Origin: a virus
Direction: 5' to 3' (one strand)
IMG/VR virus record: IMGVR_UViG_3300028837_000939
Coordinates: 1-26,135 of that record
DNA length: 26,135 bases
The translations under genes and the position numbers were made by a program. Under the pieces are notes generated by a model, which saw only the letters and a program-made list of their open reading frames with translations, ran no database searches and was not told where the DNA came from. How positions within the stretch are numbered: position 1 is the stretch's first letter; every line of letters begins with the position of its first letter. This document shows positions 6,199 to 24,291 of this stretch, one piece after another.

Positions 6199-6217
6199 TG
6201 TCTATTACCTCGTATGG

Positions 6218-7039: not shown

Positions 7040-7067
7040 AATGTCACAAGTCCTTTCTGATTTTATT

Positions 7068-9613: not shown

Positions 9614-10893
9614 TATGGTCTCATGTACCCATAGAAGTAGAATCGGTTTCTCGTAATTCCGCTCAGATCGCCACTGAACGTGACCATAATACAGTCACCA
9701 TTCGAGCGGTCTAATACAAGGGGCGTTGGATTGCCATAGATGTTCGCAAACCAGAAGTCGGCCCGAAGCATAGCGGAAGCGCTGTTGATGATAGACGCCT
9801 GACCCGCAATATCGGCATTTGAGTTGAACCGATACATCAGTCTGCCCGTATTGGCCGCGTACTCAGCGGGGTGTACCGGATCAGGATATCTATCAGGGCG
9901 ATACACTTTCACTTCAGCATATACATCCGTAGCAGCCGCCACGCTTCCGTACCAGGAAGACGTTACGCTATACGTGGCGCTCTCGATAATCCCTACCATG
10001 CGAGTCACGTACACGTCCCCGTATGATGCCGGAATACTGTCGAACACGTATACCGTGGTAGCAGTAGTAGCGTCTATGTTCCCATCGGCGTAGTCGCCAA
10101 TCAACCGATCGCAGTATATCTCCGGGATGGGAGTACCGGTCGCAGTCGGCGTATCTGTATTTGTTGCCGTGTTTACCGGAGTGTTCGTGGGCGTATCGGT
10201 ATTCGTGGGCGTATCAGTAGGTGTGTCGGTCGGAGTGTCCGTCACAGTCGGCGTGTTGGTCGGCGTATTGGTCGGCGTGTCAGTTACCGTCGGAGTATCG
10301 GTCGGAGTATCGGTCGGCGTCGGTGTATCCGTCGGCGTATCGGTTATGGTCGGCGTAGCGGTCGGCGTATGCGTAAACGTCGCGGTGGGGGTTGCTGTAC
10401 TTGTGAACGTTGCCGTCATAGTCGGGGTATGCGTAACAGTTGGAGTCTGGGTCCATTGCTGCCGCGCAATATGCCTAAACGATGCCCCGCCGATATCGTT
10501 CGTGCCGGTGTCGGATATTCCAATATAGTAGGTGCCTGTTTCGCCGGCAGGAATAGCCAGTCTCCACATCCACCATCCATACGTGAACTCCTCATACGTG
10601 AATGCGTTTGACCCGGTCGGAGTACATTCCGTGGCCCCCGCTATATCGGTGCATATAGGAGTATCGAATACCCCTCCGTCCATGTAGATAGTTCCTCCCT
10701 GTATCACTCTGGTAAACGTACACCAGGTAACCAGTGCCGCGGACGGATTTACGTCATCGATCCAGGTCCATGCATCAATCTGAATTGCTTCGGCGCACGT
10801 GTCGCCTGCCCCGGCGTAGGCCGTCGGGCTAAAGGTGCTTGCAAATAACGCCACCAAACATATCGTTAGAATAGCTTGCATCTTCGTTGTCAT
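9613..10893 (-). CDS. Secreted Thr-Pro repeat protein encoded between terminase and portal
   Basis: The start ATG 10893 has GAGG eight bases upstream and lies inside the end of the terminase nuclease gene (65-base overlap). The frame is open upstream to 11052 but that part only shadows the nuclease gene. Residues 1-27 are a Sec signal peptide ([17 protein letters not shown], cleavage near AYA-GAG). Residues about 28-147 begin [10 protein letters not shown] and resemble the N-terminus of PPC-like secreted bacterial domains. Residues about 149-257 are a Thr-Pro repeat linker ([11 protein letters not shown] style). Residues 258-426 are a second beta-rich domain. The architecture is that of a bacterial cell-surface or secreted protein, not a usual virion protein. 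It ends in a TAATG junction with the portal gene. Confidence 0.85.
10124..10452 (-). repeat. Thr-Pro coding minisatellite
   Basis: About 330 bases of degenerate short tandem repeats; on the plus strand GTCGGCGTATCGGT-like units recur at 6- and 12-base steps. They encode an alternating Thr-Pro, Thr-Asp and Thr-Asn linker inside the secreted protein. Such linkers are extended, often glycosylated, and change length easily by slippage. Confidence 0.85.
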
Positions 10894-11704
10894 CGATCTT
10901 ACCTCGTTGTGTAATATCGTCCATCCACTGTTTATGCGGGCTCCGCCGTTCGATACTCTCCATGAGAGACTCGTATTCCGAAGGTTGGGCAATGGGGATC
11001 GGACACCGATTGTGCATCTGGATAGCGATCGCCAATGCAAATACGCCGTCATCGTGTTTATTGGCCGGTCCTTCCGGCTTTCCGTGCTTGTTGTATCGAA
11101 AACTCAACAACTGTTGATACAGTTGCTTGCTATGTATCGTGATCAGATCGTGGTCTATAACTTCCATCAGGTCGCTGATCAGCGTTCCTCGCGTCGACAT
11201 GTTGGTGTTCCAACCGGGCCGGTCGGTCTCGTGCTCGCGGTCGCTCATCACCTGGCGCTGGTGGTGCAGATTACGATACCGATAGTCCTTGCTCAGCCGC
11301 TCGTTCACCCCAGAGTCCTTGTTATTCTCCACCCCGATCCACGCACCGTTGTACCAGATGCCCAGCGTAAACAATAGTGTTGCAAACTCATGGGCCTTGA
11401 TGTCGCCGAAAGCTTCGGCGACCTGCTCGAAATGTCCGCCAATATACGGACGCCGTAAAACCACGGCATAGTTTAGGTCGCCCTTTTCCAGACCCTCGGC
11501 AACATCGGCCCCTATTACGTATGCTGCACTCCGATCCTGGCGCTCTAAGTCCGTGACCGGGGGCTTGAAGATCCTCAGCCAACCGAACTCATTGACCCGA
11601 AACTCCAGACCATACGGGTTCGATTGGTCCAACCCGAGGAACGGATCGCGGTGAAAACCCAGGCGTTGGGCTATCCGGGTGAGCGATTGCTTAAAGGCCG
11701 CCAT
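10829..11704 (-). CDS. Terminase large subunit, separate nuclease domain
   Basis: 291 residues from ATG 11704, seven bases after the stop of the small upstream gene. It carries the RNase H-fold nuclease of large terminases: YVIGADVAEG with D67, the strand-end acidic site IGVENNKDSG with E126, and KHDDGVFALAIA with D218/D219. The segment VNEFGWLRIFKPP (residues 38-50) is the usual strand entering this domain. No Walker A or B motif is present; those are in the separate ATPase gene at 12072-13145. It presumably cuts concatemeric DNA together with the ATPase as a two-chain motor. The last 65 bases overlap the start of the secreted repeat protein. Confidence 0.88.
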   Translation of the reverse strand: MAAFKQSLTRIAQRLGFHRDPFLGLDQSNPYGLEFRVNEFGWLRIFKPPVTDLERQDRSAAYVIGADVAEGLEKGDLNYAVVLRRPYIGGHFEQVAEAFGDIKAHEFATLLFTLGIWYNGAWIGVENNKDSGVNERLSKDYRYRNLHHQRQVMSDREHETDRPGWNTNMSTRGTLISDLMEVIDHDLITIHSKQLYQQLLSFRYNKHGKPEGPANKHDDGVFALAIAIQMHNRCPIPIAQPSEYESLMESIERRSPHKQWMDDITQRGKIDDNEDASYSNDMFGGVICKHL

Positions 11705-11710
11705 CGTCGG

Positions 11711-12055
11711 TTACCTGTCCCACTTTCGCTTCGAAGTCTTGCTCTTTGCGGGGTCGATGTCCTCATAGATCACCGGGTCCACCGTGTCCGGAAACAGGAA
11801 GGCCAGCACGTCTTGCGGCGTGTCATCGAAGTAGCACACCGTCCCCGGGGATCCATAACGAGTGACGTTGAACGGGACGACCGCCTGCATTCTGGTCAGG
11901 CTCATCGGGTTCACGAGTGCCCGTTCGGCCCTTCTGGCCGCGTCTGCGGGCATAATGCCAGGCACGATTACCTGTCGCTGCACGGACTTGCCTGCCACCG
12001 TAGTGCATTCGCAGGTTACGAGGTAAAAACCCCAATCTTGTTTCTCGTCAGTCAT
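11711..12055 (-). CDS. 114-aa unknown protein inserted between the terminase halves
   Basis: ATG 12055 has an excellent AAGGAG site eight bases upstream and the gene begins 17 bases after the ATPase stop. It ends with TAA six bases before the nuclease start. The product (MTDEKQDWGFYLVTCECTTV) has an early strand with two Cys, a helix APADAARRAERAL-like region (MPADAARRAERAL) and an acidic then basic tail (YEDIDPAKSKTSKRKWDR). It has no HNH, LAGLIDADG, GIY-YIG or intein splice motif, so it does not look like a homing element. It may be a small terminase-associated factor or simply a late gene inserted at the domain boundary. I do not recognise it. Confidence 0.75.
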   Translation of the reverse strand: MTDEKQDWGFYLVTCECTTVAGKSVQRQVIVPGIMPADAARRAERALVNPMSLTRMQAVVPFNVTRYGSPGTVCYFDDTPQDVLAFLFPDTVDPVIYEDIDPAKSKTSKRKWDR

Positions 12056-12071
12056 TAGTCGATTCTCCTTG

Positions 12072-13145
12072 TTATGCTGCTCTGAGTGCTAATTCCCCTA
12101 TTTCGGGGAGTATTGCCTGTGACCTGATGAACTCGCCCAAGCGCCTCATTGATTCCGAGGAGAACACCGGTCGCCCGGTGCTCAATATCATCTCGCCGAG
12201 GATTCGGACCCGGCCCTCGTCGGTGAGTTCCCCGTTGACCGAGTATTGCTTAACGGCATTCTTGAGACTGATCTCCGGTATTTGACCGCAGGCAACCCCG
12301 TCGTACATGGTCGCGGTAATAGTCTCCATCCGCCCGTCGGCGGTCGCTTCGTGAATCCAATCCATGTACCAGATCCGCTCATCTCCACCGTGCAAGAGCT
12401 CCAGGGGGGTTACGCCAAGACGCATAATCCCATCGTTCCGCATGATCCGCATGTACGCTTCGTTCATAATCTCTTGCTGAGCCTCTTCGTCCATTCCGAG
12501 CCAGTCTGCGGTGAACGCCTGCCAGGCGGACCGGCCCTGGGCAAAGGTTCTGATGTGAAAAACGCTGCCATTGTGGAAATACAGGGGCGTTTGGACCATT
12601 GACTTCGTGGTCTTCGCCCAGCTTCGGACCTCGTGCATCGGCAATAGTTCGAGAATCTTGGGAATATGGTTAATTTCAGCCAAATCAGTCGTCGTTACCC
12701 CCAATACCGCCACAATAGGCCGCCCATACTTGACGTAAGGGTGCCTATCCAGGCACCGGGTCAGCCCATCGTAGATCAGGGCGTAAGTTTTACCAAGTTG
12801 GTTCGCCGTATTGAGCATGGCAATCTGATAATTCGACCGCAGAAACGCTTCCTGGTATGGATAGGCCTTAAACCGGAGCAACGGGTCGGTTTTGACCACC
12901 ATTGACAGCTTTTGGGCGATCCACCAGTCTTGCTCTTCCGGTACAATCCCTAAATGCTCGGCGTCCTGATACAGTCCGGCCAGCAATTCCGCCGTTTCAG
13001 GGTGTTTTCGTATCAGCGCGTCAATCCCACCCGGGAAGACCCCCCCGTGGAAGATATCGGGCGCCGGTTCTTTCCGCGCGACATCCTTGCCCGGCAGAAC
13101 TTCACCTAAACTCGATACGAGCTTCTCAAAGGACTTCCGGGTCAC
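12072..13145 (-). CDS. Terminase large subunit, separate ATPase domain
   Basis: 357 residues from GTG 13145, chosen because GGAGG lies five bases upstream; the frame is open to 13319 but the extra part shadows another frame. The packaging ATPase motifs are present: Walker A NQLGKT (residues 115-120) and Walker B WLGMDEE (about 215-221) with the catalytic Glu. After these come the coupling region (MRLGVTPLE) and RPVFSSESMRRL, the usual end of the ATPase domain before the nuclease linker. The chain stops shortly after, so the nuclease is not on this polypeptide. It powers DNA translocation into the prohead through the portal. Confidence 0.87.
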   Translation of the reverse strand: MTRKSFEKLVSSLGEVLPGKDVARKEPAPDIFHGGVFPGGIDALIRKHPETAELLAGLYQDAEHLGIVPEEQDWWIAQKLSMVVKTDPLLRFKAYPYQEAFLRSNYQIAMLNTANQLGKTYALIYDGLTRCLDRHPYVKYGRPIVAVLGVTTTDLAEINHIPKILELLPMHEVRSWAKTTKSMVQTPLYFHNGSVFHIRTFAQGRSAWQAFTADWLGMDEEAQQEIMNEAYMRIMRNDGIMRLGVTPLELLHGGDERIWYMDWIHEATADGRMETITATMYDGVACGQIPEISLKNAVKQYSVNGELTDEGRVRILGEMILSTGRPVFSSESMRRLGEFIRSQAILPEIGELALRAA

Positions 13146-13329
13146 CAATGCCTCCGTAGGAATCAGGCATAGCGGACCACCCAGGGGCAAACGACTCCCA
13201 AGGGCTCCGATCTTGACTACGCATGAAGTGCCAAGTACTTCCATTGCGAAAAGTGATGAGGCCCCGGACTTCATCCTGGGTCGTCCCGTCGAATGTGGGC
13301 AAGATGTCCTTGAACGCACTTGCTATCAT
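13126..13329 (-). pseudogene. Short terminase-like remnant upstream of the ATPase gene
   Basis: An open frame of 67 residues from ATG 13329 (weak AGGA site), continuing upstream in frame to 13395. It ends 20 bases inside the ATPase gene in another frame. Residues 26-55 (TFRNGSTWHF and RSPWESFAPGW) align by eye with a stretch of the neighbouring ATPase (YFHNGSVFHI and RSAWQAFTADW). The DE pair of Walker B is replaced by AMPDS and no Walker A exists. It looks like a truncated second copy of the terminase middle region, or a small gene derived from it. It could still be translated as the first gene of the operon. The homology is by eye only. Confidence 0.5.
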
Positions 13330-13350
13330 CTGATCCTGCACTCCTATCTC

Positions 13351-13377
13351 ACGCGTAATTACATTGTAATTACACGT
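13351..13377. promoter_or_regulatory. Dyad operator at the leftward promoter
   Basis: Two copies of the self-palindrome GTAATTAC (13355-13362 and 13366-13373) flank a central ATT, and the symmetry continues outward through ACG/CGT. This 27-base dyad begins right after the predicted start of the leftward transcript. It is a good candidate binding site for a dimeric or tetrameric phage regulator controlling late transcription. No repressor gene lies next to it. Confidence 0.65.
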
Positions 13378-13386
13378 CGAACGCAG

Positions 13387-13414
13387 TTTATGCACCTCGA
13401 TACCATCTTGTCAA
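13387..13414 (-). promoter_or_regulatory. Leftward sigma70-type promoter for the late operon
   Basis: On the minus strand TTGACA (13414-13409) is followed after 16 bases by CATAAA (13392-13387), four of six matches to the -10 consensus. Transcription would start near 13380, directly upstream of the dyad at 13351-13377 and the terminase genes. This is the only TTGACA facing left in the control region. Confidence 0.55.
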
Positions 13415-13514
13415 GCTAAATCATCAATAATCGTGCCAAACCTCATATTTTATTCGCCCGACTTCGGCTCTGAGTGTATTTAGGAGAGACGGTTGCCCGG
13501 TGCTTTTTCACACC

Positions 13515-13585
13515 AACTCCCGGTTTGGCTTCTTCAACTCCCGGTTTGAGGGTTTGAACTCCCGGTTTGAGGGTTTGAACTCCCG
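13515..13585. repeat. 21-bp tandem direct repeat, three copies plus a partial
   Basis: Units start at 13515, 13536 and 13557, each opening AACTCCCGGTTTG; units two and three are identical, and unit one differs only in its last eight bases. A partial unit (AACTCCCG) follows at 13578. The 21-bp period is two helical turns, as in iterons bound by replication or partition proteins. A minus-strand frame would read it as a KPGV heptapeptide repeat, but that frame has no clear start. Confidence 0.85.
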
Positions 13586-13825
13586 ACAGGACTATTAGCA
13601 TGGCAGTCTCCGACCACGGTGAAAATAATGTCTGCATGACGCATTCCTGACATGACGCAAAGCCTCGGGCGGGGTTATCTATTTCGGAAACCAACCCCTT
13701 CTCCAGCGCTGCCTACCAAATATCAACCATCGTAGTTAACATAATATCTGAAGTGAAATATAGTTTAGAGCCGATAACTTCAAGAATAGCAACCACTTAG
13801 CAGGAATATCACGAAAAACCACAGA

Positions 13826-13855
13826 TTGACAATCCCCAATACCACATGTTATAAG
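13826..13855 (+). promoter_or_regulatory. Rightward sigma70-type promoter
   Basis: TTGACA (13826-13831) followed after 17-18 bases by TTATAA/TATAAG (13849-13855). This is the best consensus promoter in the control region facing right. Transcription would start about 13861, just before the AAAGTGAC dyad. The first clear gene is 900 bases downstream, leaving a long leader. Confidence 0.6.
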
Positions 13856-13876
13856 CTAGGCCACAAGCAGCGATCA

Positions 13877-13898
13877 AAAGTGACTCTAATGTCACTTT
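13877..13898. promoter_or_regulatory. Perfect AAAGTGAC / GTCACTTT dyad downstream of the rightward promoter
   Basis: AAAGTGAC (13877-13884) and GTCACTTT (13891-13898) are perfect inverted 8-mers separated by TCTAAT. The position, at about +16 to +38 of the predicted transcript, is typical of a repressor operator; as RNA it could instead be a small hairpin. No T-tract follows. Confidence 0.6.
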
Positions 13899-14306
13899 GT
13901 TCCATAAACATCCTTGACATGTCCTGAACTGCTCCATTTCTGTTAGTCAGTAACCGTTTTGTCCATGTGAATGTACAGAACTTGACATGCTTTTAAGGGA
14001 GTTCATTTGCGTGAGGGTATCGTTACACCATGCACCCGGGTACCCGGTCGGTCGGCCCCGCGTCCCGGCCTGCTCATGCACTTGTCACAAGGCCGATACC
14101 ATGTCACCATCCGGACGGACTCGCCGTTCTGATTCCCAGACGCCATCCGATCATGCCAATTGTGGGATGGCTAGCATCTTGGCACACTTCTTGCTTTCTA
14201 TAATATAGGGGGACGAACACCGACGATCTGACCAGCCTTGACTACGCTTCACCCCATGTTTACCCTGCGTTTGCGGTCCAAACCGAGGGTAAACCGAGCC
14301 CAAAGA

Positions 14307-14370
14307 CTCCCTCCGGCCCTCAAGAAGGACCTTCTCCTCCCTCCGGCCCTCAAGAAGGACCTTCTCCTCC
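14307..14370. repeat. 30-bp tandem duplication
   Basis: Bases 14311-14340 and 14341-14370 are identical, and the match extends left to 14307. Each copy contains the near-palindrome AGAAGGACCTTCT. It lies in the long leader between the rightward promoter and the first rightward gene. It may be two regulatory sites or a recent slippage event. Confidence 0.9.
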
Positions 14371-14607
14371 TCGCGCTCACCATCAGAGCAGATTCACTCT
14401 CCGTCACCGTCACCGTCATGATACACACGACTATACTTGACAGTGTGACGCCTATTCTGCCGACAGGACTCCGTACTTGTATGGACGAATCTGCCACCCA
14501 TAAATACCCAGTTTGTCCATGCCTTGGCATCGAGGATACGGGAGCGCCTCCTGTGTATACAATGTATCTACAATCTCGTACCGTTGTTTTTCGTCAGGAC
14601 TACGTAG

Positions 14608-14635
14608 TTGACATTATAGTTTATGAGCGTTTATT
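14608..14635 (+). promoter_or_regulatory. Weak rightward promoter
   Basis: TTGACA (14608-14613), a 16-base spacer, then TTTATT (14630-14635), four of six matches to the -10 consensus. It would add to the promoter at 14735 for the early genes. Confidence 0.35.
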
Positions 14636-14734
14636 GGCACACGGCGAAAAATAGTTTCTGCGCGTAACTGGTTGATATCGTGGGAGTTATGCTCTCATCG
14701 TCGGAATAAGCAGAAAAAATCTGCAATAAAGCCC

Positions 14735-14762
14735 TTGACTATTGCCGATACTGTGCTATAGT
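14735..14762 (+). promoter_or_regulatory. Rightward sigma70-type promoter for the early genes
   Basis: TTGACT (14735-14740) and TATAGT (14757-14762) are separated by 16 bases, and the clamp-loader start follows at 14801 with GAGAGGGAG between. Transcription would begin about 14769, giving a leader of about 30 bases. This is the most likely direct promoter of the small-gene cassette. Confidence 0.65.
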
Positions 14763-14800
14763 TACAGCAGATAACATCAAGGAAAGAGAGGGAGCAGACC

Positions 14801-15454
14801 GTGAAAGCAACACCGCTTTACATCAAATGGAGGCCCGATGCCTGGGAGCAGGTCATCGGACAGCCGAAGATCCAACGTCAAGTGTCGGTCCTTCGCAACC
14901 GTGGAGGCTTCGGGCGCCATGCGTTTTGGATCTCCGGTAAATCGGGAACCGGAAAAACAACCATTGCGTACCTGATAGCACACGAACTAGCGGAGCCTTA
15001 CAACGTTCGCGAGGTATCGGCAGACGAGCTGACAGCCGGAACCCTGAGGCAGATTGAAATGGACTTTCGGCTGTATGCGTTCGGCGAACTGGCCGGTCGA
15101 GCCCTCATCATCAACGAAGCGCATGGCCTCCGAAGAGACACGATCCGCGAACTGCTCGTTTGGTTGGAAAAACTCCCGGAGCAGACCTGCGTGATATTCA
15201 CGACGACCGTCGAAGGGCAATTGAGCCTATTCGAGGACAAAATAGACGCTTCACCACTTGTCTCACGCTGTATCGAGTTAACCTTGACGAACCAAGGAAT
15301 CTCCAAACCTCTAGCCAAGAGAGCCAAAGAAATCGCCTTGGCGGAGGGTCTGGATGGGAAGCCGATCGCCGCCTACATGAACCTGGTTGCCGATTGTAAC
15401 CAGAACATGCGGCGGGTGTTAGAGCACGTGAACATCGGCGAAATGATCGCCTGA
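14801..15454 (+). CDS. DnaX-like clamp-loader AAA+ ATPase
   Basis: 217 residues from GTG 14801 with AGGGAG upstream. The start YIKWRPDAWEQVIGQPKIQ matches the 'YrKyRP..f.dviGq' opening of clamp-loader ATPases. Walker A is GKSGTGKT (46-53), Walker B is ALIINEAH (101-108) with Asn in place of the usual Asp but the catalytic Glu kept, sensor 1 is FTTT, and the clamp-loader SRC motif is at 155-157. It is much shorter than bacterial DnaX and lacks the C-terminal collar domains, so it may act with host subunits. No sliding clamp or DNA polymerase is in the window. It is the first gene of the rightward operon. Confidence 0.85.
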   Translation: MKATPLYIKWRPDAWEQVIGQPKIQRQVSVLRNRGGFGRHAFWISGKSGTGKTTIAYLIAHELAEPYNVREVSADELTAGTLRQIEMDFRLYAFGELAGRALIINEAHGLRRDTIRELLVWLEKLPEQTCVIFTTTVEGQLSLFEDKIDASPLVSRCIELTLTNQGISKPLAKRAKEIALAEGLDGKPIAAYMNLVADCNQNMRRVLEHVNIGEMIA

Positions 15455-15468
15455 ACATACGGAAAGAC

Positions 15469-15481
15469 CCGGCTAAGCCGG
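15469..15481 (+). promoter_or_regulatory. Intergenic mini-hairpin before the 78-aa gene
   Basis: CCGGC-TAA-GCCGG, a 5-bp stem with a 3-base loop, lies between the clamp-loader stop and the ribosome site GAGAGAGGAG. It belongs to the family of CCGG leaders seen before the next genes. Confidence 0.55.
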
Positions 15482-15509
15482 CAACCTATAAGAGAGAGAG
15501 GAGAAGCTG

Positions 15510-15746
15510 ATGAGAACACCACTTGAACAGGCAGCTCAAGCACTTGAACAGGCAGCTCGAGATCGCGCCGACCGAGCCGCGAAGGCCCGCACGCTAATGC
15601 AACTAGTGAATCGGATTGAACGTATCGCGGCCCAGTTGGCGCAGCGTCATCCGGGTCATCCGGACTATCTGTCTAAGGCAGACGCAGAATTCGCACTGCG
15701 AGGTGTCTATGCAGATTTTTTGATCATGCTTGCAAACAATGACTAA
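15510..15746 (+). CDS. 78-aa helical protein, unknown
   Basis: ATG 15510 follows GAGAGAGGAGAAGCTG. The N-terminal half is Ala/Arg/Glu-rich and strongly helical (LEQAAQALEQAARDRADRAAKA), probably a short coiled coil. It contains an internal duplication: CACTTGAACAGGCAGCTC occurs twice 21 bases apart and encodes LEQAA twice. The C-terminal half (DYLSKADAEFALRGVYADFLIML) is also helical. No family is recognised. It belongs to the early small-gene cassette. Confidence 0.65.
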   Translation: MRTPLEQAAQALEQAARDRADRAAKARTLMQLVNRIERIAAQLAQRHPGHPDYLSKADAEFALRGVYADFLIMLANND

Positions 15747-15770
15747 CCGAAAACCGGGCGACCCCGGAGA
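15745..15770 (+). promoter_or_regulatory. Start-associated leader repeat, copy 1
   Basis: Runs from the upstream stop (TAACCGA) and contains CCGGG-CGAC-CCCGG, a 5-bp stem, just before GAAGGAG and the next ATG. Confidence 0.55.
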
Positions 15771-15783
15771 GAAGGAGACAGAG

Positions 15784-16143
15784 ATGAGAAGTATCGTTCA
15801 GGATTATGACCTTTACGACGCCTGTAGGGTCTACGCAACGACAATCGTGAGGGTGCAGGGTGAAGGCGCGGGCTGGTACTGCGCAACTCACTCCGACGTG
15901 AGTGTCGATGAATGCAACGCCGACGTCAACAATAACGTTCTAGGCCCGTCACCTACATGCGCAGACTTGCTCTTCGGAGGCTATCTGGCCGAAGCGGAGG
16001 CGATTGCCGCTTTCACGGCCGCATTTCGAAAGGCCGTCCGAAAACCCGCCGGCGACGAACATCACATAGCGCGATACTGCCGAATCCGTGATGGATACCA
16101 GGCTGGATACCTGGCTGGGTTGCGGGTTGTCGAGAACGAATAA
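15784..16143 (+). CDS. 119-aa unknown early protein
   Basis: The start ATG 15784 is chosen for GAAGGAG nine bases upstream; the frame is open to 15730 but that part is the leader repeat. The product begins MRSIVQDYDLYDACRVYATT, has three Cys within residues 13-60, and contains a helical Ala-rich segment (GYLAEAEAIAAFTAAFRKAVRK) followed by DGYQAGYLAGLRVVENE. No family is recognised. It is flanked on both sides by members of the start-associated leader family. Confidence 0.65.
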   Translation: MRSIVQDYDLYDACRVYATTIVRVQGEGAGWYCATHSDVSVDECNADVNNNVLGPSPTCADLLFGGYLAEAEAIAAFTAAFRKAVRKPAGDEHHIARYCRIRDGYQAGYLAGLRVVENE

Positions 16144-16158
16144 CCGAGACCGGAGAAA
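16142..16158 (+). promoter_or_regulatory. Start-associated leader repeat, degenerate copy 2
   Basis: AACCGAGACCGGAGAAA directly after the TAA stop, followed by a 30-base stretch and GGAGGAGG before the next ATG. It lacks the second CCGG arm. Confidence 0.45.
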
Positions 16159-16194
16159 CGAAAGCCAAACCATAACGGAGGAGGAAAAAAACCA

Positions 16195-16383
16195 ATGCTC
16201 TACAGAATCGAGATACAGGCATCTCTAGCCGATGAGTGGGAACATGTCGACGATACCGACCGCGCCCGGATGGCCTGCGATATCGCGCAGGTCTGGGAGG
16301 ACGAAGGGTTTGACGTTCAAATCCTTGACTCTTGTGGCGGAACCTGGAAACCGGAACTGATGCGGCAATTCATGGCCGCGTAA
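16195..16383 (+). CDS. 62-aa unknown early protein
   Basis: ATG 16195 with a GGAGGAGG site 8-10 bases upstream. The product MLYRIEIQASLADEWEHVDD is acidic, with a strand-helix-strand look: a strand (LYRIEIQ), a helix (DRARMACDIAQVWEDEG) and a strand (FDVQILDSCG). This resembles small alpha/beta phage proteins of unknown role. It is bounded by leader repeats on both sides. Confidence 0.65.
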   Translation: MLYRIEIQASLADEWEHVDDTDRARMACDIAQVWEDEGFDVQILDSCGGTWKPELMRQFMAA

Positions 16384-16405
16384 ACCGAGACCGGGCGACC
16401 GGAGA
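16382..16405 (+). promoter_or_regulatory. Start-associated leader repeat, copy 3
   Basis: A 24-base element from the stop codon onward, AAACCGAGACCGGGCGACCG then GAGA, followed by AAAGGAG and the next ATG. It is identical to the element at 17145-17168 except for one base. Confidence 0.65.
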
Positions 16406-16421
16406 AAAGGAGACCGAGACG

Positions 16422-16745
16422 ATGAACCCACAGAGAACAGGCGTCACCGAGACTGATCCTCGCACAGGGGAATCATGGGAAAAATTGCTTGCCGAATATC
16501 GCCTGAACGATATTCGAGAGCGTGACGATGATGGGTATGATGTCGAGAGCGTGAGCGGCAATACCTATCGAGTTATGTCGCACACCCGACTCGATGAAAT
16601 GGGATCGATGTATTTCACCTGGTCATGTACGTGTCCGGCACGAAAACGGTGTCGCCATATCGATGCCGTCCAACAGATGCGATGGGCGGAGGCGGCGGCT
16701 TCTGAGGATTATGACGGGATGGACATAATGGAGAGAGAACAATAA
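16422..16745 (+). CDS. Small SWIM-type zinc-finger protein
   Basis: 107 residues from ATG 16422, AAAGGAG upstream. The segment WSCTCPARKRCRHIDAV has the SWIM zinc-finger spacing C-x-C-(n)-C-x-H with C69, C71, C77 and H79, preceded by strands YRVMSH and MYFTW as in the family. SWIM domains bind nucleic acid or partner proteins. The N-terminal 45 residues are acidic and helical (GESWEKLLAEYRLNDIRERDDD). Free-standing SWIM proteins of this size occur in phages and plasmids, but their roles are mostly unknown. Both borders carry the start-associated leader. Confidence 0.75.
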   Translation: MNPQRTGVTETDPRTGESWEKLLAEYRLNDIRERDDDGYDVESVSGNTYRVMSHTRLDEMGSMYFTWSCTCPARKRCRHIDAVQQMRWAEAAASEDYDGMDIMEREQ

Positions 16746-16777
16746 CCAATCCGTGGTGACCCGGCAACGCCGGAGAG
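16744..16777 (+). promoter_or_regulatory. Start-associated leader, copy 4 (hairpin CCGGC-AAC-GCCGG)
   Basis: After the TAA stop comes AACCAATCCG, then the perfect 5-bp hairpin 16761-16773, then GAGAGAGGAG. The hairpin matches that at 15469-15481 except for the loop. Confidence 0.6.
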
Positions 16778-16791
16778 AGGAGCACGAGACG

Positions 16792-17112
16792 ATGAGAACA
16801 GCGAAACCCCTGCGAATACGTAAACGGTACAGGAATGCGATGCGCCATGCGAATTACTACGCACAGACAAATCAGACAACCTATCCGGCGGTATGGGCCG
16901 GATATAGGGTCGGGCCCGGAACCGGCCTAGCACGCGATTGTAGAACCGGAGCCCACGGAGATCGTAGGCGGGAGTTGGCCGCCGTTCGCGTGGTGGCGGT
17001 ACTACTAGGCATCCCCTCGCGCGAGATAGCGGAGCCGGGATTCTGGGATTACGAAACGACGGAATCCGATATCTGCAAATGGATTCTCCGCCGCGTCCGG
17101 GAATCTGAGTAA
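16792..17112 (+). CDS. 106-aa basic unknown protein
   Basis: ATG 16792 after GAGAGAGGAGCACGAGACG. The N-terminus is very basic (MRTAKPLRIRKRYRNAMRHANYY), suggesting nucleic-acid contact. The middle is Gly/Arg-rich and the C-terminus is helical (RRELAAVRVVAVLLGIPS, SDICKWILRRVRESE). No known motif is visible. It sits in the early cassette between leader repeats. Confidence 0.65.
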   Translation: MRTAKPLRIRKRYRNAMRHANYYAQTNQTTYPAVWAGYRVGPGTGLARDCRTGAHGDRRRELAAVRVVAVLLGIPSREIAEPGFWDYETTESDICKWILRRVRESE

Positions 17113-17115
17113 ACG

Positions 17116-17187
17116 ATGAGAGACGACCAAATTCGGGCGCGTCTAAACCGAGACCGGGAGACCGGAGAATTGGAGGAAAGACCATGA
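17116..17187 (+). CDS. Possible 23-aa leader peptide
   Basis: ATG 17116 opens a 23-codon frame that reads through the whole start-associated leader and ends in an ATGA junction with the next gene (17184). The product is MRDDQIRARLNRDRETGELE and three more residues. The ribosome site is weak (GAGTAAACG). It may serve translational coupling, or be chance. Confidence 0.3.
   Translation: MRDDQIRARLNRDRETGELEERP
17145..17168 (+). promoter_or_regulatory. Start-associated leader repeat, copy 5
   Basis: A 24-base element, AAACCGAGACCGGGAGACCG then GAGA, followed by TTGGAGG and the ATG at 17184. Only one base differs from copy 3 at 16382-16405. Confidence 0.65.
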
Positions 17188-17444
17188 CAAGAGCAGGCAC
17201 GCAACACAAAGCACTTGCCAACCTTGAAGATACCTCACAAGAGCAACCATTGAAGGCGTGGCATTACGTTTTTCGACGGAAGTATGCCGACAAGGAATGT
17301 GGCGGGGACTGGTATACGCCAGCCGGCGCATTATGTCACCGGAGTGACATGGCCGCCGATCTCGATATCACACAAGGTGCCATTGCGCGGTGGGAGAATG
17401 CTCAAGCGAAAGGACACAACCGAGATGAAAAAAACGGAGTTTGA
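17184..17444 (+). CDS. 86-aa unknown early protein
   Basis: ATG 17184 follows TTGGAGGAAAGACC. The C-terminal part (MAADLDITQGAIARWENAQAKG) has the spacing of a helix-turn-helix (A..L.iTQGAIARWE), like Cro/CI-type recognition helices, but the domain would be incomplete. The middle segment WHYVFRRKYADKECGGDW is rich in aromatics. The last 20 bases overlap the next gene. It may be a small DNA-binding protein; confidence in that role is low. Confidence 0.6.
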   Translation: MTRAGTQHKALANLEDTSQEQPLKAWHYVFRRKYADKECGGDWYTPAGALCHRSDMAADLDITQGAIARWENAQAKGHNRDEKNGV

Positions 17445-17661
17445 GAAATGGAAACACGTGTATGAGCAGGCGGAACTTGCGGGTCCAGAAACACCGCATA
17501 CCCCGCTCCCGTGGACAACGAGCCAAAACTTGATACTTGACGCCAAAGGTGACGAAATCGCCCGCGTAAGTTACGAGCAGAGCGGTTATGTCCAGGCCAA
17601 CTTGCGTCTTATGGTCGCCGCGCCGGTATCGCCAGAACGCGGGAAAAAGAGTAGAACATGA
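17425..17661 (+). CDS. 78-aa phage protein of the 'HTPLPW' type
   Basis: ATG 17425 starts inside the previous gene; AAAGGA lies 11 bases upstream. The segment HTPLPWTTSQNLILDAKGDEIARV followed by ANLRLMVAAPV matches a pattern seen in many phage early proteins of unknown function (TPLPW, I.da.G..ia, aN..lMvaAP). It is somewhat short for that group. It ends in an ATGA junction with the next gene, so the three genes are translationally linked. Confidence 0.65.
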   Translation: MKKTEFEKWKHVYEQAELAGPETPHTPLPWTTSQNLILDAKGDEIARVSYEQSGYVQANLRLMVAAPVSPERGKKSRT

Positions 17662-17864
17662 ACCAACTTCTAAAAACCGTAACAGACGAAAACTGCGAGG
17701 CGGTCGTGTTAGAACAAATCCAAGAAACTCAATACGAACTCGACCACCCGATCCCCCAGCAGCACAGAGGCTTTCTGATCTCCCATCTGATGACCCTCGA
17801 ATGGATACTGCGGGATATTCGGAGACCGAGAACGGAGGCGATAGATGCGAACCGCACTCCTTAA
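17658..17864 (+). CDS. 68-aa unknown early protein
   Basis: The start overlaps the previous stop in ATGA. The product MNQLLKTVTDENCEAVVLEQ is helical throughout (IQETQYELDHPI, GFLISHLMTLEWILRDIRR). The end overlaps the next small gene by 20 bases. No family is recognised. Confidence 0.6.
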   Translation: MNQLLKTVTDENCEAVVLEQIQETQYELDHPIPQQHRGFLISHLMTLEWILRDIRRPRTEAIDANRTP

Positions 17865-18015
17865 ACGCCTGAAACGGAACCGGATAGAATATCACCGCCA
17901 ACAACTCCGAGAGATCCGAAGATCGATACAACTCGACCACGAAAAACGCGAGCGGATCGCGCACCACGAGAAATGCCTGAGAGAACTCAAAAACCCCGAA
18001 GAGAAAGGAGAGTAG
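17845..18015 (+). CDS. 56-aa very basic helical protein
   Basis: ATG 17845 has GGAGG six bases upstream. The 56 residues (MRTALLKRLKRNRIEYHRQQ) are almost one continuous Arg/Lys/Glu/His-rich helix (LREIRRSIQLDHEKRERIAHH), probably a coiled coil or RNA/DNA-contacting helix. It overlaps the end of the previous gene and stops 31 bases before the HTH gene. No family is recognised. Confidence 0.6.
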   Translation: MRTALLKRLKRNRIEYHRQQLREIRRSIQLDHEKRERIAHHEKCLRELKNPEEKGE

Positions 18016-18046
18016 TCCGTGAAAATCTTCCCAGTAGGAGTAACCA

Positions 18047-18271
18047 ATGAGACGAGAGCAGCTATTGACCGTTAGAGAATTAGCCGACGAACTGAATCTG
18101 GGCCGGGGATACGTCCGCCAGCTGGCAACCGAGGGGAAAATCCCAGGCTTCAAGCTGGGCGGCCCGCACGGCTCTTGGCGATTCCACCGCAGGGCCATCA
18201 CCGCATGGCAAAAACTACACGAAAACGATTGGAGCAACGATGCGACTACCACCAAAGAAACAAATCAGTGA
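18047..18271 (+). CDS. Excisionase/MerR-type helix-turn-helix protein
   Basis: 74 residues from ATG 18047 with AGTAGGAG upstream. The segment LTVRELADELNLGRGYVRQLATEGKIPGFKLGG..WRFHRRAI..W is the standard winged-helix pattern of excisionase-family (HTH_17/AlpA/Xis-like) proteins: turn helix 'ELADELNLG', recognition helix 'GYVRQLATEG', wing 'IPGFKLGG' and closing 'WRFHRRAI'. Such proteins act as phage regulators or directionality factors. No integrase is in the window, so a regulatory role is equally likely. The last 32 bases overlap the next gene. Confidence 0.8.
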   Translation: MRREQLLTVRELADELNLGRGYVRQLATEGKIPGFKLGGPHGSWRFHRRAITAWQKLHENDWSNDATTTKETNQ

Positions 18272-18686
18272 CGTCTGGAGGGGCCTCCACGGCGGCACAC
18301 TACCCTCCAGCCGAGCCGCTGGCGTGACCCTAGAGCAACGGCGAGAGTTACGCGCGAGCTACTACGAAATGGCGGACAGGGCAAGGGAGACGATCGGAGA
18401 GGCACTGACAGCAACCCGGAGCGACGGCAACCCCGACTGGCATACACGCTTAACCGCCGCGAAGCTCGTGCAGTCGGTGACCGTCCCGTCGTTGGCTCCC
18501 GTGGCAGTCAAAATGGACGACGAAGAGGGCGCCATAACCTCCTTGCGCTATCTGTCGGTCAATCTGCCGACGGAATTCGCGGCCCTCGGGGCCATAGTTC
18601 TCGGAGCGCTCGGAACCCAGGCGCCCGGGCCCGCCCAGCAGATCGAGCAGGCACCCGACAAACCGGAGACCAACGATGAAGCGTAA
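18240..18686 (+). CDS. 148-aa unknown protein, terminase-small-like helical pattern
   Basis: ATG 18240 with GGAG five bases upstream, inside the end of the HTH gene. The first 85 residues are helical (LEQRRELRASYYEMADRARETIGEAL, DWHTRLTAAKLVQSVTV) and the 'R..AAK.v' run resembles a segment of small terminase or ParB-like phage proteins. The C-terminus is Ala/Gly/Pro-rich (APGPAQQIEQAPDKPETNDE) and probably disordered. A small terminase is otherwise missing from this window, but its place on the early strand argues against that. Function unassigned. Confidence 0.6.
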   Translation: MRLPPKKQISDVWRGLHGGTLPSSRAAGVTLEQRRELRASYYEMADRARETIGEALTATRSDGNPDWHTRLTAAKLVQSVTVPSLAPVAVKMDDEEGAITSLRYLSVNLPTEFAALGAIVLGALGTQAPGPAQQIEQAPDKPETNDEA

Positions 18687-19338
18687 CCCCTTGGCATACC
18701 ATACCGTATATCTGAAAATATGCGGCGACCTGAATCGAACCGTAACCCCGTTCAAGGTCTACAAGCCAGATATTGTTATAAACTCCACCGATTCAAGGCC
18801 TTACGCCTACCCGATCAACGGGCTGGCGTTTGACCTGCTCCATCGAGATGAGGTCTACGGACCGGACACGTCGCCCCTGGCCGAAACCCTTCGGAAACTG
18901 GTTGGTCCCAAGTCGCCCGAACTCCTGACCGATGTTGTCCTCACGATGCCCAAGCGCCGGGGAATAGAAGAGGCCTCCGCTGAGATCAAGGCGGGTTTCT
19001 TTGCGCCGATCCCCGATGAATGGGCAGACGGTATCAAGCCTCACGTTTCACGCGCCTGGATTACGGCAGCCCATGAGGAGCAACGCTTGCCACACATTGT
19101 CGGTTGGATTTTCGTTGACTCGCTGGTTTACGTGGAAAACCCGCGGAAGCCCCTGCCTGTTTGGCTGAATTGGGCATACCGGCACCCGCACCTGACAAGG
19201 ATAGATTTTCTGCACGGACTCATCGCCAGTGGCGATGAGAAGGTCCGGCCCGTCCGAAAGCGGGAGGTCTTGGCCATCTATAAACCCGGAGTCCGGTACA
19301 TCCGACGGGGCATCCGAAAAATAATTCGCCGCAGGTGA
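18676..19338 (+). CDS. 220-aa unknown protein with basic tail
   Basis: ATG 18676 overlaps the previous stop by 11 bases; GGAG upstream. The product has mixed alpha/beta character (YHTVYLKICGDLNRTVTPFKV, LPHIVGWIFVDSLVYVENP) and a strongly basic end (KPGVRYIRRGIRKIIRRR), suggesting binding to nucleic acid or membrane. No catalytic motif is evident. It is the last gene before the internal promoter at 19348. Confidence 0.65.
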   Translation: MKRNPLAYHTVYLKICGDLNRTVTPFKVYKPDIVINSTDSRPYAYPINGLAFDLLHRDEVYGPDTSPLAETLRKLVGPKSPELLTDVVLTMPKRRGIEEASAEIKAGFFAPIPDEWADGIKPHVSRAWITAAHEEQRLPHIVGWIFVDSLVYVENPRKPLPVWLNWAYRHPHLTRIDFLHGLIASGDEKVRPVRKREVLAIYKPGVRYIRRGIRKIIRRR

Positions 19339-19347
19339 AAAAAGAGC

Positions 19348-19374
19348 TTGACAAACCGTAAAACACCGTATAAC
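19348..19374 (+). promoter_or_regulatory. Internal promoter placing the transcript start at a start codon
   Basis: TTGACA (19348-19353) and TATAAC (19369-19374) with a 15-base spacer. Transcription would start about 19381-19383, at the second ATG (19383) of the following small gene. No Shine-Dalgarno site precedes either ATG, so a leaderless message is likely. Confidence 0.55.
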
Positions 19375-19376
19375 AT

Positions 19377-19550
19377 ATGAATATGGGCACAGAACATGGG
19401 AAAATCAGAGCATTCCGACCGCGAGATACCGAACCGATGATCCAATACTTATTGAGCGGAAAGGAAAGCGAATTATCGAGCCTGATACGTCGCTTGATCC
19501 GGTCAGAATACAGACGCAAAGTGGCAAGGAAACGCAATTCAAAACGATAG
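19377..19550 (+). CDS. 57-aa basic ribbon-helix-helix-like protein
   Basis: ATG 19377 (or ATG 19383, giving 55 residues). The product (MNMGTEHGKIRAFRPRDTEP) has a short strand (KIRAFRPRD) followed by two helices (PMIQYLLSGKE, ELSSLIRRLIRSEYRRKVARK). This strand-helix-helix plan and the 'elS.lIR.lir' segment resemble Arc/MetJ-type regulators. It lies directly under its own promoter with no ribosome site, so it may be a leaderless regulator like lambda cI from its maintenance promoter. It is too short for the usual gene-length cutoffs. Confidence 0.6.
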   Translation: MNMGTEHGKIRAFRPRDTEPMIQYLLSGKESELSSLIRRLIRSEYRRKVARKRNSKR

Positions 19551-19567
19551 AGGAGGGGAGAAAGACA

Positions 19568-19870
19568 TTGGAAAAAGTAAACGTAATTGACGGAGTAGGG
19601 CACATAACACTCCGAGGGACGGAAGACAAGGCCTTGATTATAAAGGGTCGAAACATTAGTTCAGTAAGCGCGCTCTCCGAAAAGAATGACCCAAACATCA
19701 GGACGTTGATTGTTGCGGAATACGGCAAAGGAGAAAGTGCTGTGTATTTTTCCGTCCAGGAGACCCCGGAGGAAGTCCTGGCCTTGATGAAACAGGCGTC
19801 GGATGCGGCGAAGGACGCAGAGGCACCCACACCAGCCGCAACCGAAGAGACCCAAGCCGCGTTCGAATAG
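19568..19870 (+). CDS. 100-aa unknown protein with 'ETPEEV' motif
   Basis: Starts at TTG 19568 with GAGGAGGGGAG upstream. The residues 'ITLRGTEDKALIIKGRNISSV...TLIVAEYG...YFSVQETPEEVLALMKQ' match a small beta-strand domain often seen in phage and FlbD-like proteins, where strands end in 'V.ETPEEVl.li'. The C-terminal 30 residues are Ala/Glu/Thr-rich and disordered. Function unknown. Confidence 0.65.
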   Translation: MEKVNVIDGVGHITLRGTEDKALIIKGRNISSVSALSEKNDPNIRTLIVAEYGKGESAVYFSVQETPEEVLALMKQASDAAKDAEAPTPAATEETQAAFE

Positions 19871-19877
19871 GGCGCGC

Positions 19878-19926
19878 CGGCGGGGGAGGTTCCCTTTCTT
19901 TCCTCCCCCGCCGAATAGAAAGGGAA
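19878..19926 (+). promoter_or_regulatory. Hairpin with loop complementary to the downstream ribosome site (element A)
   Basis: CGGCGGGGGAGG (19878-19889) pairs perfectly with CCTCCCCCGCCG (19902-19913). Its 12-base loop contains TTCCCTTTCT (19890-19899), which is perfectly complementary over 10 bases to AGAAAGGGAA (19917-19926), the ribosome site of the gene at 19936. The hairpin and the second pairing cross, so they form a pseudoknot or alternate structures. There is no U-tract after the stem. Confidence 0.6.
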
Positions 19927-19935
19927 ACCGAGCAC

Positions 19936-20511
19936 GTGCCCCGTGCGCCTGACAATCACGACAGTCTGGCGGATGTGGTTCTCTTTCGGCTGCTCAATCT
20001 CGTCGGGCACGATAAAAAGGGGTGCGATAAAAAGGTTATCGCCTGGGTTCGGGGGATGGACCTAAAACTCGAAGTATTAGAGCGGTCTTCAGCGGTACAT
20101 AGGCGATGGGCCGGGTATTCAAGTACGGAATCGGACATTGAGGGAATCGCTAGATGTTTCAATAAACTGATTGCCGACGCCGAGCAGGCTCGGGAAATAC
20201 GGTCACGCCTTGAGGCCCTCGAAACCCCAAAGCCGAAGCCGGAGCCAGAACCGGAGCCGGAGAAGACGTGGAAGAATGAAGCGCTAGGAGCGATTGTCGC
20301 GCAAGCACTTCCTGTGTATTCCCTATATCTGCTGGGTTGCGATGTTTCCGGGGTCAGATTCGAGTTCGACAAGCGTAAATTCCTGGTGGACCCGCACCTG
20401 TGCGTCCAAGAGATATTCGAACCACACCTGCTATGGACGTCCCAGGCTGCGCTCATCGAACAGACAATCAAGTACGCAGCACAATCCCACGGAAAGGAGA
20501 ACGCCCAATGA
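19936..20511 (+). CDS. 191-aa unknown protein with Pro-Glu linker
   Basis: GTG 19936 with AAAGGGA about 10 bases upstream, the sequence complementary to the loop of element A. The N-terminal 95 residues are helical and charged (DSLADVVLFRLLNLVGHDKKG, GIARCFNKLIADAEQAREI). Then comes a PKPEPEPEPE linker (about residues 98-108) and a C-terminal part (IVAQALPVYSLYLLGCDVSG, PHLLWTSQAALIEQTIKYAA). No family is recognised. It ends in an ATGA junction with the RNA-ligase gene. Confidence 0.65.
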   Translation: MPRAPDNHDSLADVVLFRLLNLVGHDKKGCDKKVIAWVRGMDLKLEVLERSSAVHRRWAGYSSTESDIEGIARCFNKLIADAEQAREIRSRLEALETPKPKPEPEPEPEKTWKNEALGAIVAQALPVYSLYLLGCDVSGVRFEFDKRKFLVDPHLCVQEIFEPHLLWTSQAALIEQTIKYAAQSHGKENAQ

Positions 20512-21458
20512 CGTCTTGGCACTCTTACCCAAAAGTTTACAATCTGGGGCATCCCGCGATAGCCAATTTATTCCAGGAGCCGGTAATCGTTGAAGAGAAA
20601 ATCGACGGTTCTCAATTCTCGTTCGGTATATTCGAGGAGGGATTGCGGTTCAAGACCAAGAATAAGGAGTTTACGACCGCCAACACCGAACAGATGTTCG
20701 CCCGTGCCGTTGAGTCGGTTCTATTTATTCAACCGGCACTGACTCCCGGATGGACATACCGATGCGAATATCTTCAGAAGCCGCGCCACAACGCCATTAC
20801 CTACAGCAGGGTGCCGCACCTTAATCTGATTCTTTTCGACGTGAATACCGGCGAAGAAACCTACTTGTCCCGGCTGCCAAAACAGGCCGAAGCAGATCGT
20901 CTTGGCCTGGAATGCGTTCCACTTCTATTTTCTGGCATGGTTCCGGGCATCGATCAATTCATGGGCCTGCTCCAGACAGAAAGTATTCTCGGAGGGTCCA
21001 AGATCGAAGGCGTGGTTATCAAGAACTACGCTCGGTTCGGAGTGGACGGCAAGGCCCTGATGGGCAAGCACGTTCAACCATCCCTCCGCGAGGAGAACGC
21101 ACTTGCTCAGAAAGTGTGGGTGGCCCAGAACCGAAAGACCGGGCGGGATGTGATCCAGCGGATTATCGAGACGTACCGAAATGAAGTCCGGTGGGCAAAG
21201 GCAGTCCGGCATCTCCGCGACGATGGACTGCTTGAGAACTCCCCGAGGGACATCCCGGCAGTGCTCAAAGGGGTGTCGTGCGATATTGCCGAGGAGTGCA
21301 AAGAGATGATCCTCGAGGCCTTCTGGAAGTGGGGGTGGCCACAGATCCATCGAGGTGTTACCAAGGGTGTGGCGGATTGGTACAAAAATCAACTGCTTGA
21401 ATCGCAGTTCACAACCACAGAATCCCAAGGAAAGGAGCACACCGAAAAGGCCAAGTGA
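20508..21458 (+). CDS. RNA-ligase-family nucleotidyltransferase (Rnl2-like)
   Basis: 316 residues from ATG 20508, coupled by ATGA to the previous gene. The nucleotidyltransferase signature is present: motif I EEKIDGSQFSF with K31 as the likely adenylated lysine, motif III near YRCEYLQKPRH, and motif IV IEGVVIKNY, with further lysines in ALMGKHV as motif V. Together these fit the RNA ligase / polynucleotide ligase superfamily, size like Rnl2 (about 330). The C-terminal helical part could be the Rnl2-specific domain. It would seal RNA or nicked nucleic acid. No kinase partner is visible here. Confidence 0.82.
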   Translation: MTSWHSYPKVYNLGHPAIANLFQEPVIVEEKIDGSQFSFGIFEEGLRFKTKNKEFTTANTEQMFARAVESVLFIQPALTPGWTYRCEYLQKPRHNAITYSRVPHLNLILFDVNTGEETYLSRLPKQAEADRLGLECVPLLFSGMVPGIDQFMGLLQTESILGGSKIEGVVIKNYARFGVDGKALMGKHVQPSLREENALAQKVWVAQNRKTGRDVIQRIIETYRNEVRWAKAVRHLRDDGLLENSPRDIPAVLKGVSCDIAEECKEMILEAFWKWGWPQIHRGVTKGVADWYKNQLLESQFTTTESQGKEHTEKAK

Positions 21459-21463
21459 ACACG

Positions 21464-21489
21464 GGCGGGGGAGGGCGACTTTCCCCGCC
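21464..21489 (+). promoter_or_regulatory. GC-rich hairpin before the membrane microprotein (element B)
   Basis: GGCGGGG (21464-21470) and CCCCGCC (21483-21489) flank a 12-base loop. It sits between the ligase stop and AAGGAAGGGAG, the ribosome site of the gene at 21514. Loop-to-site pairing is weak here, unlike elements A and C. Confidence 0.5.
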
Positions 21490-21513
21490 ACAGACTAAGG
21501 AAGGGAGACAAGA

Positions 21514-21615
21514 ATGTTAACCGCAATCCTAATCGCAGCCGCACTCATCAACATAGCACTCGCACTCGCCGGAATCGGGCTACACGTGGCCGATGCCCTG
21601 AAGGCAATCGAATAA
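21514..21615 (+). CDS. 33-aa single-span membrane microprotein
   Basis: ATG 21514 has AAGGAAGGGAG upstream. The 33 residues are almost wholly hydrophobic (LTAILIAAALINIALALAGIG) with a short charged tail (LHVADALKAIE), so it is probably one transmembrane helix. It could be a small holin-like, toxin or membrane-modulating peptide. It lies between two GC-rich hairpins. Confidence 0.5.
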   Translation: MLTAILIAAALINIALALAGIGLHVADALKAIE

Positions 21616-21622
21616 TGTGCTG

Positions 21623-21681
21623 GCGGGTCCGGGGCTTACCCTCCCTTTCTACCCGGACCCGCATAATTTTTCTGAAAGGGA
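21623..21681 (+). promoter_or_regulatory. Hairpin/pseudoknot before the 56-aa gene (element C), terminator-like
   Basis: GCGGGTCCGGG (21623-21633) pairs with CCCGGACCCGC (21652-21662), followed by ATAATTTTT, so it resembles an intrinsic terminator. In the loop, TCCCTTTC (21642-21649) is perfectly complementary to GAAAGGGA (21674-21681), part of the next ribosome-binding region. The 11-base spacer makes a pseudoknot feasible. It could switch between termination and blocking of the ribosome site. Confidence 0.6.
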
Positions 21682-21699
21682 CAGGAGGAGAAGGACGCC

Positions 21700-21870
21700 A
21701 TGGCTGGGAATATCACAGCGGACATGCTTGTTGAGAACTTCACGAGACTTGCGACGCAACGCGACCATTTAGTGCGGGAAGTGCGAACCTGGACCGGGAA
21801 TCCGAACTGGCCCGACCCGGCAGATTCAGAGACAACGAAACCAAGAGAGGAGAAAGAAGCCAATGGCTAA
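21700..21870 (+). CDS. 56-aa unknown protein upstream of RecT
   Basis: ATG 21700 with AGGAGGAGAAGG upstream. The 56 residues (MAGNITADMLVENFTRLATQ) form a helical N-terminus (ADMLVENFTRLATQRDHLVREVRTW) and an acidic tail. It overlaps the RecT gene start by 8 bases, so it probably co-regulates or assists recombination. No family is recognised. Confidence 0.6.
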   Translation: MAGNITADMLVENFTRLATQRDHLVREVRTWTGNPNWPDPADSETTKPREEKEANG

Positions 21871-24211: not shown

Positions 24212-24240
24212 CTCTTCTCCTCTCCGAAATGCCGGGACCT

Positions 24241-24277
24241 TGCGGTGTACCGGGGAAGAAAGGTTAACCGCATTTTT
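24241..24277 (+). terminator. Intrinsic terminator/attenuator before the zinc-finger pair
   Basis: TGCGGT (24241-24246) pairs with ACCGCA (24267-24272), with an inner ACC/GGT pairing and an immediate TTTTT (24273-24277). It ends the recombination group; GAGGAGG and the next start follow within 15 bases, so read-through would allow the downstream genes. Confidence 0.6.
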
Positions 24278-24291
24278 GAGGAGGAAATCCC

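Follow-up and report, generated by a model that had tools for sequence, protein, structure and literature searches.

Repeated leaders before early genes of a tailed phage probably form a translation-start module like that of some mycobacteriophages, with a different sequence

Introduction

Repeated leaders associated with start codons have so far been detailed for one mycobacteriophage cluster, and in the literature on repeated start leaders only the work on this cluster (cluster K) was found to be directly comparable with the leaders described here. The start-associated sequence (SAS) of cluster K mycobacteriophages, GGGATAGGAGCCC, is present in 11-19 well-conserved copies that lie 3-7 bp from the start codon, according to the account of Pope et al. 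(2011, PMC3203893). In that account the SAS includes the Shine-Dalgarno (SD) sequence, is almost always in one orientation, precedes genes of different families that are non-structural only, and has no known function. SAS and extended SAS (ESAS) of cluster K are also treated in PMC12699233. The ESAS is described as a 17-bp imperfect inverted repeat found just upstream of the SAS at a subset of genes (PMC3203893; PMC11373665). A putative SigA-like promoter within the ESAS is mentioned in PMC11373665, where the role of these leaders in cluster K is still called ill-defined.

Other phages have repeated or structured elements between their genes. Promoter early stem-loops (PeSL) of T4-like phages are repeated intergenic stem-loops that are thought to mediate gene shuffling (PMC4503421, referencing Arbiol 2010 and Comeau 2014), and the title of Comeau 2014, as cited there, calls them composite promoter-terminator motifs. 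The translational operators of T4, which include a hairpin for gene 43 and a pseudoknot for gene 32, are presented in PMC3014915 as gene-specific autoregulatory sites.

The phage genome

The window (the whole stretch of DNA that was analysed) is a virus record of 26,135 bases from a tailed phage. The late half is read leftward and encodes a portal protein, a major head protein and a terminase-like protein. The early half is read rightward and encodes a clamp loader, an RNA ligase, a RecT-like annealing protein and exonuclease-like proteins. No DNA-level match to window positions 1-25000 (near mode) or 14000-21999 (distant mode) turned up in 50,697 phage records, and the portal and head proteins have distant relatives only (20-28% identity), mostly in Arthrobacter and Microbacterium phages. 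One close virus contig (L003) is near-identical to window positions 1-14340 and stops before the leader region. No relatives of the early region were found in the phage records, viral contigs and genomes searched; two contigs with related RNA ligases (L006 and L007) had no other early gene in common with the window, gene Q having been compared out of frame.

Several further features of the genome were observed. L003 reaches 1312 nt past the left end of the window, and its other end (14340) falls within positions 13400-14740, a long, sparsely coding region between the divergent operons that holds a perfect tandem repeat (2 x 30 nt, 14307-14366). The terminase large subunit is apparently split on the minus strand (10829-13319) into an N-terminal part with a weak Terminase_6N match (12072-13319), a 114-aa ORF between the parts (11711-12055) and a C-terminal-like part assigned by eye (10829-11704). 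Positions 24292-24786 and 24813-25274 encode tandem paralogues (36% identity, E 1.3e-32), the first of which has a weak zf-Di19 zinc-binding match. The gap at 24212-24291, before a 164-aa gene, carries TTCTCCTC just 3' of the upstream stop codon. Folding of this gap alone lets TTCTCCTC base-pair with GAGGAGGA at the SD; a different structure prevails in a wider fold.

The early transcript likely starts at the promoter-like site upstream of gene A (Table 1), in which a TG precedes the second hexamer, as judged by a consensus scan only. The early genes G-H, H-I and I-J overlap, and no leader lies between them.

Table 1. Coordinates of the early genes, leaders and associated features in the window
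Feature	Coordinates	Strand	Description
Promoter-like site	14735-14762	+	TTGACT-16-TATAGT, sigma-70-like; upstream of gene A; consensus match only
Gene A	14801-15454	+	217 aa; clamp-loader-like AAA protein; GTG start
g1, leader A-B	15455-15509	+	hairpin CCGGC-TAA-GCCGG, 15469-15481, 5 bp; SD GAGGAG
Gene B	15510-15746	+	78 aa; without family
g2, leader B-C	15747-15783	+	full element; hairpin 15754-15767 (5 bp), starts 30 nt 5' of ATG
Gene C	15784-16143	+	119 aa; without reliable family
g3, leader C-D	16144-16194	+	5' half only (TAACCGAGACCGGAGAAACG); SD GGAGGAGG
Gene D	16195-16383	+	62 aa; without family
g4, leader D-E	16384-16421	+	full element; hairpin 16391-16402, GCGA (GNRA-type) loop, starts 31 nt 5' of ATG
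Gene E	16422-16745	+	107 aa; no family match; CxC...CxxH spacing SWIM-like by eye
g5, leader E-F	16746-16791	+	5-bp hairpin 16761-16773, starts 31 nt 5' of ATG; no clear CCGAGA part
Gene F	16792-17112	+	106 aa; without family
g6, whole gap	17113-17183	+	stop of F to start of G
Extra 31 nt in g6	17113-17143	+	F stop to g6 element; resembles leader end + start codon (ACGATGAGA), not significant
g6 element, leader F-G	17144-17183	+	full element; hairpin 17154-17165, GAGA (GNRA-type) loop, starts 30 nt 5' of ATG
Gene G	17184-17444	+	86 aa; without family; overlapped by next gene, without leader between
Excisionase-like HTH protein	18047-18271		encoded near leader region
Second-family leader, first	19871-19935		early gap; long GC hairpin 19878-19913 (12 bp)
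Second-family leader, middle	21459-21513		early gap; long GC hairpin 21464-21489 (7 bp, strict pairing)
Second-family leader, third	21616-21699		early gap; long GC hairpin 21623-21662 (11 bp)

The leader element

Six consecutive early gaps, each running from stop to start codon, span positions 15455-17183. In its full form the element consists of TAA(A)CCGAGACCGG, a CCGG-loop-CCGG mini-hairpin and GGAG. In g2 the first of these parts is altered to CCGAAAACCGG. The leader g3 has an exact TAACCGAGACCGG, but the hairpin of 4 bp is absent from it, and g1, which has no clear CCGAGA part, is the most divergent of the copies. In g2, g4, g5 and g6, AGA comes after the hairpin and before the SD; GACCGG is directly repeated in g4 and g6; and all six leaders end in a purine-rich SD that lies 6-10 nt from the ATG.

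A sequence-only reading of this DNA had described the gaps between six consecutive small genes as filled from stop to start by variants of one element. That observation is real but overstated. The similarity goes beyond chance (see below), and the 24-mers at 16382 and 17145 do differ at one base, as was read directly. All three parts, however, occur only in g2, g4 and g6, the element in g6 starts 31 nt past the upstream stop codon, and the first upstream gene, A, encodes a clamp-loader-like protein that is not small.

Relatedness of the leaders and of their genes

The sum-of-pairs local score of the six gaps was 338, versus 228 +/- 12 for 1000 dinucleotide shuffles (maximum 273). When the 45 nt upstream of start codons were compared, the six leaders scored 336 versus 188 +/- 12 for random sixes of the 27 other starts in the window (maximum 247), and none of 20,000 such sixes reached the score of the leaders. 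The result holds without the last 20 nt, which contain the SD (219 versus 135 +/- 9; 0 of 20,000 random sixes as high). Of the 30 ordered leader pairs, ten outscore every non-leader tile of the window (1471 tiles); the weak copy is g1, whose best partners are matched by 8 of these tiles. An all-GC hairpin of 4-5 bp is found in five of the six gaps, versus 0.9 expected (P about 0.0005), a value to be read with the fact that the leaders are related and so are not six independent hairpin events. The pattern CCGG-N3-6-CCGG has 16 sites in the window versus 4.8 expected, and 5 of the 16 are inside the gaps, which make up 1.1% of the window.

Leave-one-out profiles refound three of the five hairpin leaders as the best non-training match. 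The E values were 0.02 for g4, 0.12 for g5, 0.47 for g2 and 5.7 for g1, with g6 not among the matches listed; a four-copy profile is thus too weak for searching. The full profile matched five leaders in the window at E <= 0.001 and its next best match had E = 3. The search of the rest of the genome that had been suggested thus brought up no further copy in the window, within which the element is restricted to the early operon. One exact leader pattern occurred in one viral contig (L002), which was taken as a chance match: the site is unlike the leader and the contig has nothing else in common with the window. Two other leader patterns occurred in no viral contig and in no genome contig.

The genes next to the leaders are unrelated, as the sequence-only reading had it. 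No mutual similarity was found among A-G with blastp (best pair E = 0.91), and duplication among these genes was rejected on this ground. In the wider blastp comparison the rows for gene Q are void and gene U was entered one codon too early, neither of which bears on A-G. Similarity that runs from stop codon to start codon, between unrelated flanking genes, would also suit a recombination boundary, the second option of the sequence-only reading. In this view the leader is mainly a short stretch of homology for the gain, loss or swap of small genes through the phage annealing protein, with translation control secondary. The RecT-like and exonuclease-like proteins of the phage are in keeping with such exchange, and the 31 extra nt in g6 could be the remnant of a lost gene. 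We consider this explanation unlikely. The evidence for a remnant does not reach significance (P about 0.1), the stretches in common are only 24-46 nt long, relatives with gene swaps were not found in the collections searched, and translation better accounts for the fixed distance to the start codon.

Position relative to the start codon

In four of the five hairpin leaders (g2, g4, g5 and g6) the hairpin has its 5' end at -30 or -31 relative to the start codon and its 3' end 17-20 nt 5' of that codon; in g1 it sits at -41 to -29. The distance from the upstream stop codon to the hairpin varies from 7 to 41 nt. Because the spacing to the start codon is constant in four of five and that to the stop codon varies, the element is tied to the beginning of the following gene and not to the end of the preceding one. 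All copies are on the plus strand, in a single orientation.

These distances argue against a role at the 3' end of the preceding gene, as in an mRNA processing or stability element whose small hairpin caps the processed end of each gene. Hairpins do lie between genes here and in three more early gaps, but stems of 4-5 bp are short and such a role is very unlikely. The CCGG arms could instead act as palindromic DNA and, as has been proposed for the inverted repeats of the ESAS, a regulator of phage or host could use these palindromes, or the GACCGG direct repeats of g4 and g6, as operators. A gene for an excisionase-like HTH protein lies close by (Table 1). A DNA-binding site nevertheless has a low probability in our judgement, given gaps without a promoter-like site, one orientation throughout and a mostly fixed place relative to the start codon.

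A consensus scan found neither a promoter-like site nor a plus-strand terminator-like site in the six gaps, and a promoter or terminator role was rejected accordingly; the one terminator-like match, on the minus strand, comes from the g2 hairpin in reverse. A known structured RNA family was likewise rejected, as the Rfam 15 covariance models gave no match at E <= 1 in positions 14600-22000. For C, E and F, the reading frame of the gene continues upstream through the leader without a stop codon. The ORFs of B, D and G start at the ATG with no in-frame upstream start, and because these three of six cannot be extended, the leader was rejected as a coding extension.

Predicted RNA folding

The stems of g1 and g5 have C-G as their innermost pair and that of g2 has G-C, with GNRA-type loops instead in g4 and g6. 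This variation is suggestive of pairing, on a comparison of five related sequences that was made by eye because MAFFT misaligned g1, g3 and a second leader family (see below). When the leaders were folded in context (-100 to +60), the outer-pair probability of the hairpin was 0.96 in g1, 0.99 in g2, 0.22 in g4, 0.26 in g5 and 0.11 in g6. Forbidding the hairpin raised, lowered or left unchanged the accessibility of the SD, depending on the leader. The SD accessibility of the leader starts (0.52-0.65) is not clearly higher than that of the 27 other starts (0.51 +/- 0.11). Leaders folded from the stop codon to a point some 30 nt past the start of the gene gave z values from -1.27 to 0.78 versus shuffles. 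The shared regulatory RNA element that had been suggested is thus plausible but weakly supported, as the hairpin dominates in context in two of five leaders and whole-leader folding is no better than that of shuffled sequences. The hairpin may be incidental to the conserved sequence, or it may form only when ribosomes hold the neighbouring genes unfolded.

The lack of a robust fold would also suit leaders that are a neutral leftover of local duplication, copied along with genes that then diverged past recognition and having no function beyond the SD. The leaders are adjacent and contain low-complexity repeats of the GAGACC type, as this explanation would have it. It is improbable, however, since the genes bear no trace of a common origin and non-coding spacers should diverge no more slowly than genes.

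A second leader family downstream

Three early gaps further downstream contain leaders with long GC hairpins (Table 1). Compared with shuffles, the first and middle of these fold better (z -3.4 and -3.0), and the third does not (z -0.9). The arms of the first and third hairpins differ in sequence and both are fully paired. These two leaders keep the loop sequence TCCCTTTC and, between hairpin and start codon, its complement GAAAGGGA; neither 8-mer is found elsewhere in the window. The complementarity of loop and downstream sequence extends over 10 nt in the first leader (P 0.005 versus shuffles) and 8 nt in the third (P 0.05), and is lacking in the middle one. The first and third are possible pseudoknot leaders, judging from this complementarity. 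With a 12-bp stem and a short linker, steric constraints may hinder full pairing, which makes the pseudoknot a lead and not a result. The early region could hold two families of structured translation leaders, the CCGG mini-hairpin leaders at 15455-17183 and the pseudoknot leaders at 19871-19935 and 21616-21699, with a phage or host factor tuning the translation of each gene set together, although we give this a low probability.

In the late half, ACAAGGAGAAYCGA is common to two leaders on the minus strand (7620-7640 and 12056-12080), shortly upstream of the ATG in each, and is perhaps another small start-associated repeat.

A proposed working of the leaders

We hold with moderate confidence that the gaps contain one duplicated translation-initiation leader which is SAS-like in its working and outside the SAS/ESAS family. 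One leader would have been multiplied within the early operon by duplication and set before unrelated small genes. The transcript probably begins at the promoter before gene A, and on this single mRNA the small genes would each be translated from their own leader; overlapping genes such as G-H, H-I and I-J would need none. The leader would be laid out as a CCGAGA/CCGG segment at about -31 to -17, the purine-rich SD (GGAG) and the ATG. The upstream segment is placed at the outer edge of the stretch that a 30S subunit would cover. A fixed segment at the edge of the ribosome footprint could serve as a landing or insulating segment, and it may set ribosome access or block pairing of the SD with the preceding gene. 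PMC5318159 reports that, in E. coli, the ORFs of one operon are isolated in structure from one another close to their starts. The hairpin may form in the cell, although g3, from which it is absent, would have to work hairpin-free.

If this reading is true, a modular start leader would allow the immediate expression of a new small gene. The leaders g1-g6 form a compact natural set of variants, in which the hairpin and the CCGAGA part are each present or absent, and on which effects on translation could be tested directly.

Comparison with known systems

The leaders share several features with T4 operators and PeSL as these are described in the sources cited above. Like the T4 operators, they are a putative structured RNA upstream of a ribosome-binding site, but they are repeated at unrelated genes and have no known cognate protein. 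Like PeSL, they are a repeated intergenic stem-loop element, but the consensus scan found neither a promoter nor a plus-strand terminator in the six gaps.

The resemblance to the leaders of cluster K, which the sequence-only reading had proposed, holds for architecture and fails for sequence. Like the SAS in its published description, the leader is repeated, on the plus strand only, directly upstream of the starts of unrelated genes and at a spacing that is fixed in four of the five hairpin leaders. It likewise includes the SD and precedes non-structural genes only; by profile search, the late half of the window is free of copies. Unlike in the SAS, the conserved part of the leader lies upstream of the SD, and the sequences are unrelated: the 13-bp SAS consensus has one match in the window with 2 mismatches, versus 0.76 expected by chance, and that match is outside the leaders. 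As with the ESAS, some of the genes have an inverted-repeat part immediately before the SD part. The arms here are perfect and 4-5 bp long, in contrast to the imperfect repeats of about 17 bp described for the ESAS, and a SigA-like promoter was not found in the six gaps (consensus scan only).

On the best reading of these comparisons, the leader would work like the SAS, yet it falls outside SAS, ESAS and PeSL on the features tested, with PeSL set apart by their description in a citing paper. The six early leaders are thus probably a translation-start module like that of some mycobacteriophages, with a different sequence. If so, they would be a second, sequence-unrelated case in an apparently distant phage, which would suggest that modular start leaders have evolved repeatedly.
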